Shown here in pieces: positions 3,776 through 3,892 of a stretch of 39,541 nucleotides of DNA. Position 1 is the first letter of the stretch; every line of letters begins with the position of its first letter. The DNA is taken from positions 1 through 39,541 of the IMG/VR virus record IMGVR_UViG_3300028837_001110. One strand, given 5' to 3'. Made by a program: the position numbers and the translations under genes. The stretch is from a virus. Below the pieces are notes generated by a model that was not told the DNA's origin, did no database searches, and saw only the letters and a list, made by a program, of their open reading frames with translations.

Positions 3776-3892
3776 TGCCAGGGACGGGACTCGAACCCGC
3801 AAGGTGGGCAGGACTTCACCTCCGGTTTTTTATGGGGTTGGTTCCGGTTTCCCTCATGCCGCCATTGTGTCTACCAATTCCACCACCCTGGC
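3776..3892 (-). tRNA. Oversized tRNA-Leu-like element 2 (117 nt)
   Basis: The acceptor stem is GCCAGGG/CCCTGGC (perfect 7 bp, discriminator A at 3776), followed by TGGTGGAATTGGTAGACAC, a textbook class II leucine D arm. A variable arm AGGTG/CACCT and a T arm GCGGG TTCGAGT CCCGT are intact. Between D arm and variable arm there are about 44 bases where about 20 are usual, and no normal anticodon stem pairs; one register would give a GAG anticodon with G37, which is right for leucine but has no stem. It is the tandem partner of the element at 3558-3684, with the same defect. A short intron-like insertion, decay or a decoy function are alternatives. Confidence 0.6.

Follow-up and report, generated by a model that had tools for sequence, protein, structure and literature searches.

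The DNA under study, a 39.5-kb IMG/VR virus record that we refer to in full as the window, has matches to a terminase, a portal protein and a major capsid protein, which mark it as a tailed phage. Two tRNA-like elements, B (3892..3776) and A (3684..3558), lie in tandem on its minus strand, flanked on that strand by a gene with its end at 4222 and a gene with its start at 3367. The features are as follows.

3776..3892, minus strand: element B, a tRNA-Leu-like RNA of 117 nt without a decoding anticodon arm (from the scans and the sequence)
3886..3892, minus strand: 5' strand of the B acceptor stem, GCCAGGG, pairing at 7/7 positions with 3777-3783
3867..3885, minus strand: U8, G9 and the leucine-type D arm of B, TGGTGGAATTGGTAGACAC (A14, A15, G18, G19, A20a)
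3801..3866, minus strand: centre of B, 66 nt in place of the anticodon and variable arms, with U48 at its end
3862..3865 with 3832..3835, minus strand: predicted stem S1 of B, AUGG/CCAU (p 0.13 for B alone)
3844..3847 with 3822..3825, minus strand: predicted stem S2 of B, CCGG/CCGG, its 5' strand in the S1 loop, so that it crosses S1 as a pseudoknot
3802..3821, minus strand: variable-arm hairpin of B, AGGTG (AAGTCCTGCC) CACCT (from the helix list)
3784..3800, minus strand: T arm of B, GCGGG TTCGAGT CCCGT (from the scan and a 15-nt Rfam T-arm match)
3776..3783, minus strand: 3' acceptor strand of B, CCCTGGC, with discriminator A73; CCA is not encoded
3558..3684, minus strand: element A, 127 nt, with the Leu-like D arm TGGTGGAAAGGCAGACAC (found by ARAGORN when introns are permitted, and by a second scan)
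3611..3647, minus strand: 37-nt insert of A within a possible Leu(AAG) anticodon loop

Element B had been described as a 117-nt RNA with intact arms, about 25 extra bases and no anticodon stem, and our analysis confirmed this. Its acceptor (7 bp), D (3 bp) and T (5 bp) stems are fully formed, and 45 nt separate the D arm from the variable arm, compared to 19 in a tRNA, which leaves 26 extra nucleotides. This segment contains no 5-bp stem closing a 7-nt loop with U33. Of the features of a functional tRNA-Leu, B has the acceptor, D arm, T arm, U8 and G18G19 and lacks the leucine anticodon arm. Assignment of the D arm is based on its sequence, on BLAST matches to annotated tRNA-Leu D arms and on leucine identity elements (PMC9976931); the determinants of E. 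coli LeuRS given in that study, A73, A15-U48, G18G19 and A20a, are all present in B.

ARAGORN missed B at its default settings. A default run with introns allowed returned exactly B, A and a tRNA-Met from the window and nothing from 50 dinucleotide-shuffled windows; its sole proposal for B was a Phe(AAA) tRNA whose stem is mismatched and whose intron measures 27 nt. A second, independent scan also returned B, A and the tRNA-Met alone, at a rate of 1 match per 100 shuffled windows. Together with the similar RNAs held by many unrelated phage contigs, this rate indicates that the resemblance to a tRNA is not due to chance. Rfam 15 did not detect B as a tRNA; across the window and 28 loci it assigned RNAs of this kind to no family but tRNA, with some elements appearing as tRNA matches with large insertions.

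The expectation that the two tandem elements share the same defect held in part. Element A is a real tRNA-Leu-like RNA with an over-long centre, but its arms stack as 8+5, since one extra base (3566) separates the T stem from the acceptor (ACAGCAG/CTGCTGT), and it retains what may be a 5-bp anticodon stem, ACTAT/ATGGT, whose loop, CTAAGAC, is interrupted by the 37-nt insert. A can be read as a Leu(AAG) tRNA carrying this insert at 37/38, although a leucine anticodon arm also appeared in 20 of 2000 shuffles.

Elsewhere in the window, the anticodon loop of the tRNA-Met (10410-10481, minus strand) is closed by three G-C pairs, and its positions 1:72 form an A-C mismatch; both features suggest an initiator tRNA-fMet. 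Two more intergenic RNAs on the minus strand fold strongly, one at 2512-2602 (z -3.0), whose outer helix is GGCCAUAC/GUAUGGCC and whose hairpins resemble a cloverleaf, and one at 2638-2702 (z -5.0). Structured-looking leader repeats (AGCCGGG..CCCGGTAT.CCTGG.., with the 3' end ACCTTGAGGAGGGT), in up to 4 copies, lie directly 5' of the start codons of consecutive small genes on the minus strand; one set is at 12118-12147, 12371-12400, 12637-12666 and 12936-12965, and the other at 12182-12201, 12412-12431, 12441-12469, 12682-12701, 12698-12726 and 12715-12734. A Mom-like DNA modification protein (PHROG 1384) is encoded at 38769-39224 on the minus strand.

Our searches found no close relative of this phage. 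The exact DNA of B had no match among viral contigs, no homologue of B or A was found, and searches with the adjacent gene, the terminase and an SbcC-like protein recovered distant relatives only, in none of which a tRNA could be recognised. Against named phages, BLAST of the locus returned only D-arm or T-arm pieces of ordinary tRNA-Leu. Some hits in named phages were intact or truncated tRNA-Leu genes adjoining an integrase, probably integration-site copies, a reading ruled out for B because both tRNA halves are present in it.

We then asked how widely such RNAs occur, using patterns of normal-identity motifs that placed a tRNA-Leu D arm and a T arm 48-80 nt apart. The strict pattern occurred in 10 viral contigs, compared to 3 loci in 84,980 cellular (bacterial and archaeal) genomes; 2 of these 3 loci have ordinary anticodon arms. 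Two looser leucine D-arm patterns matched at least 119 and at least 120 IMG/VR contigs, the second of them having no match in 393 Bacteroidales genomes. A type-I D-arm pattern, TAGCTCAGNNGGNAGAGC, with an over-long centre, had been meant as a control to show leucine specificity; it matched at least 120 viral contigs and revealed similar RNAs with other acceptors, indicating that the phenomenon is not leucine-specific. A canonical anticodon arm was absent from 148 of the 206 distinct viral and cellular matches listed. These 148 were picked by D-arm and T-loop motifs only, with acceptor pairing outside the search pattern, and all 7 acceptor pairs were formed in 107 of those listed and 6 of 7 in a further 13. 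Among the 119 listed matches with at least 6 acceptor and at least 4 T-stem pairs there were 69 different acceptor sequences. B has the features that define this class, namely a Leu-type D arm, a perfect acceptor, U48 and a centre of 40-76 nt without a canonical arm.

Several copies per genome were found at L028, L144, L337 and L349 and in Vibrio phage nt-1, and at L028, L144 and in nt-1 they coexist with full sets of normal tRNAs. Long tRNA-like RNAs of 110-123 nt are present in nt-1 (L383:3563, 3959, 4098 and 5997) and in Vibrio phage D482 (L384:454, 829, 965 and 2994), where they have a hairpin and an (A)CAGCA/CTGCA motif near the anticodon stem and about 20 normal tRNAs alongside. The D482 features carry a plain tRNA annotation with no comment, and the elements of nt-1 and of Bacteroides phage BS-TP2 are intergenic and unannotated. 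A second type-I subfamily (L328:2473, minus strand; L376:136; L382:8642; L366:11337; L352:11788, minus strand; L291:2647, minus strand) has a conserved GGYGAAGGRCC hairpin within a covarying stem (CCGCT/AGCGG, CCTCT/AGAGG, CCTCC/GGAGG) and ends in AAGCC or GGCC. Many viral contigs, for example L027, L029, L032, L038 and L046, also encode long-variable-arm tRNAs with a normal anticodon arm, GTT-type anticodons (CTGTTTA loop), U48 and G73-CCA, an odd isotype for a type II tRNA. One phage contig with RNAs of the class also encodes a GOLLD RNA and a tmRNA (L163:6680-7086 and 3921-4312), and another a permuted tmRNA (L330:11505-11828). Phages apparently encode a large and so far undescribed set of tRNA-bodied RNAs without a usable anticodon.

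The tRNA body of these RNAs is well preserved. In a scaffold alignment of 55 sequences, each with a different acceptor stem and picked for having at least 6/7 acceptor pairs, 99.3% of cells were standard pairs and two-sided changes occurred at 7/7 acceptor pairs, giving a covariation score of 0.814 compared to 0.190 after shuffling. Acceptors with 7/7 pairs were about equally frequent in noncanonical (90%) and canonical (91%) elements at a scanner minimum of 6, and at the class level we found none of the stem erosion that marks pseudogenes. In addition, among the 209 noncanonical elements listed, Leu-type and type-I, bases 15:48 were A:U in 124, G:C in 75 and other in 10, base 48 lying outside the search patterns; the 199 of 209 with A:U or G:C indicate that the L-shaped core is kept. 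By these alignments, the tRNA body is under selection. The covarying acceptor stems, the 15:48 pair and the several copies per genome lend support, at the level of the class, to the earlier suggestion of a noncanonical tRNA with a shared purpose.

We also examined the folds of the centres. In the layout predicted for B, AUGG/CCAU and CCGG/CCGG are separated by A6 and the variable-arm hairpin stands apart, while the predicted counterparts in A are ACUAU/AUGGU and a pairing between CCUGCGU of the insert (3640-3646) and GCGCAGG of the variable region (3591-3597). Taken alone, neither prediction is significant (p 0.13-0.58 for B; p 0.11 for A). The minimum-free-energy fold of B is no better than that of shuffles (z 0.22), indicating that nested folding fails to capture it, and its centre is without covariation support of its own because the homologue search for B came up empty. 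Among 115 nonredundant Leu-type centres from the matches listed, however, the H-type pseudoknot score was -5.80 compared to -3.63 for dinucleotide shuffles, a paired difference of 2.17 (s.e. 0.36). The enriched fold has a stem at the anticodon-stem position whose loop pairs with the variable region, and its recurrent topology, D arm - S1 - S2 - S1' - S2' - N - U48 - T arm, resembles a variable arm whose 5' strand has been transferred into the anticodon loop. Centres fall into small subfamilies with a common fold and different sequences. Covariation occurs within a subfamily (ATAG/CTAT in L147/L196, TTGG/CCAA in L237), and stems are kept through two-sided changes in L149/L150/L155, L052/L206, L020/L102 and L143/L210, as judged by hand with no tool score. 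These comparisons indicate that Leu-type centres are structured rather than random.

Could the centres simply be small introns, removed by an unknown splicing route to leave normal decoding tRNAs? For the type-I members this model seemed right until their discriminators were compared. In 40% of 77 type-I members, compared to 1.3% of shuffles, one deletion yields a perfect 5-bp arm with U33 and purine 37. Most of the inserts come after anticodon-stem base 28, and many contain a hairpin and then an (A)CAGCA motif, an arrangement also seen in Vibrio phages nt-1 and D482. Removal of a single insert also restores a canonical anticodon arm in A, at a chance level of ~1%, and the Leu-type members L055, L090, L107 and L250 fit with leucine anticodons. 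In B, on the other hand, no single-insert deletion gives 5 pairs, the best giving 4 pairs and no leucine anticodon, and Leu-type members as a whole fit in 7% of cases compared to 2% of shuffles. The discriminator agreed with the restored isotype in only 9 of 29 fitting type-I members (8.5 expected at random), compared to 355 of 374 normal type-I tRNAs from the same loci. Moreover, normal tRNAs for the same codons coexist with the elements, such as two tRNA-Asn(GTT) in nt-1, and the inserts fall far below the size of group I or II introns. We consider the intron model unlikely. The class is heterogeneous, and because ~40% of the listed type-I members retain a rebuildable anticodon arm, describing these as non-decoding rests on the discriminator test. 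Given that test and the coexisting normal tRNAs, we think that the intron-like members, too, are something other than decoding tRNAs, although A and its like may still be spliced.

Members of the class retain three of the tRNA arms (acceptor, D and T) and the 15:48 pair, but a variable domain of 40-75 nt substitutes for, or breaks into, the anticodon arm. Since discriminators are uncoupled from isotype, what appears to matter is the tRNA body, not codon reading or any particular amino acid. Judging from sequence, we put at about an even chance the reading that B, and probably also A, is a phage-encoded non-decoding tRNA-like RNA whose body is a ligand for host tRNA-handling proteins. We are slightly more hesitant about the general form of this proposal, in which phages widely encode a non-decoding tRNA-bodied class, uncoupled from amino-acid identity, with B and A as members, and in which the body would serve as a carrier for rapidly evolving domains, many of them pseudoknotted, that target host factors. 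Under such a scheme the transcript would be matured and protected as a tRNA, through RNase P and CCA addition, and would be unable to read codons. It would then most likely present a tRNA-shaped ligand to host tRNA-handling proteins, acting in phage-host conflict as a decoy, bait or scaffold whose specificity comes from the rapidly changing centre; this last role we infer from shape, variability and phage bias. B may also be charged by host LeuRS, since it keeps A73, A15:U48, G18G19 and A20a, and E. coli tRNA-Leu variants without the anticodon and variable arms retain leucylation (PMC9976931). Charging is probably not the shared function, given that A73 is present in 82 of 109 Leu-type members; type-I discriminators are mixed.

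A more specific version, raised with the earlier suggestion, would make these RNAs decoys for host anticodon nucleases that cut tRNA-Leu. The elements are phage-encoded, tRNA-shaped and in tandem, and an anticodon loop is retained in A and many type-I relatives, most often of the Lys type (8 of 29). In B and most Leu-type members, however, there is no anticodon loop to cleave, so B is not an obvious nuclease bait, and no defence or counter-defence gene was identified adjoining it; we judge this idea somewhat less probable than the intron model.

Phage tRNA genes are frequently gained and lost, and the missing anticodon could mean that these are decaying genes, or pseudogenes, that received random insertions in the anticodon region. 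We regard this as improbable. Stems and the 15:48 pair are preserved as in functional tRNAs across many unrelated sequences, centres covary within subfamilies (ATAG/CTAT against TTGG/CCAA), and insertions are confined to the centre in both elements of the window and in the several per genome elsewhere. As tmRNA shows, an aminoacylated RNA can have pseudoknots and lack an anticodon. It is nevertheless highly improbable that B is a minimal tmRNA-like RNA that enters the ribosome charged by LeuRS, with its predicted pseudoknot substituting for the anticodon arm in the A site: B has the full set of leucine identity elements, and LeuRS can do without the anticodon and variable arms (PMC9976931), but discriminators vary across the class, making charging no class property, no tag reading frame was identified, and the Rfam tmRNA model aligns to the T arm of B alone, at 11 bits.

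If the non-decoding, tRNA-bodied reading holds, many of the 'odd', intron-containing or pseudo tRNAs in phage annotation would be a functional RNA class without a role in translation. Members occur in isolated phages with tractable hosts (nt-1 in V. natriegens; BS-TP2 in B. salyersiae), which makes their function directly testable.

No description of such a class was found in the literature or in Rfam 15, in a search that covered subscription papers and preprints thinly, and an earlier description is possible. Among known systems, tRNA-Leu (RF00005) shares with B the acceptor, leucine-type D arm, T arm, A73, 15:48 pair and long variable region, whereas B has 26 extra nucleotides, no 5-bp/7-nt anticodon arm and a match below RF00005 detection. 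Intron-containing tRNAs, whether archaeal with a bulge-helix-bulge or group I, resemble the class in their extra bases at the anticodon arm, which some relatives can restore; in contrast, B restores no arm, isotype and discriminator disagree in the members that do, and the inserts are too short for group I. With tmRNA (RF00023) and permuted tmRNA, B shares a tRNA-like end, the lack of an anticodon and pseudoknots (predicted in B), but it is one third as long, has an intact D stem, carries C:G at 3:70 rather than the alanine G3-U70, and has no identified tag frame. The tRNA-like structures of plant RNA viruses are likewise viral tRNA mimics with pseudoknots, again predicted in B; they form the 3' ends of RNA genomes, whereas B is encoded by a DNA phage as a gene of its own and has a true tRNA acceptor stem. 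We take B to be a phage tRNA-like RNA, with a real chance that it represents a new class. A partial precedent comes from phage T4, whose rnaC (species 1 RNA, 139 nt) and rnaD (119 nt) adjoin tRNA genes and are similar in size to B; both are small stable RNAs of unknown role, species 1 RNA having been so annotated since classical work. The T arm was not found in rnaD. Like B, rnaC (L385:1109-1247, minus strand) has a perfect T arm at its 3' end, CCGGG-TTCGAAT-CCCGG, but it differs in having only 5/7 acceptor pairs and no recognised D arm. We therefore regard rnaC as the nearest, if partial, historical relative of B, and the role proposed here, if true, could bear on the function of T4 species 1 RNA.
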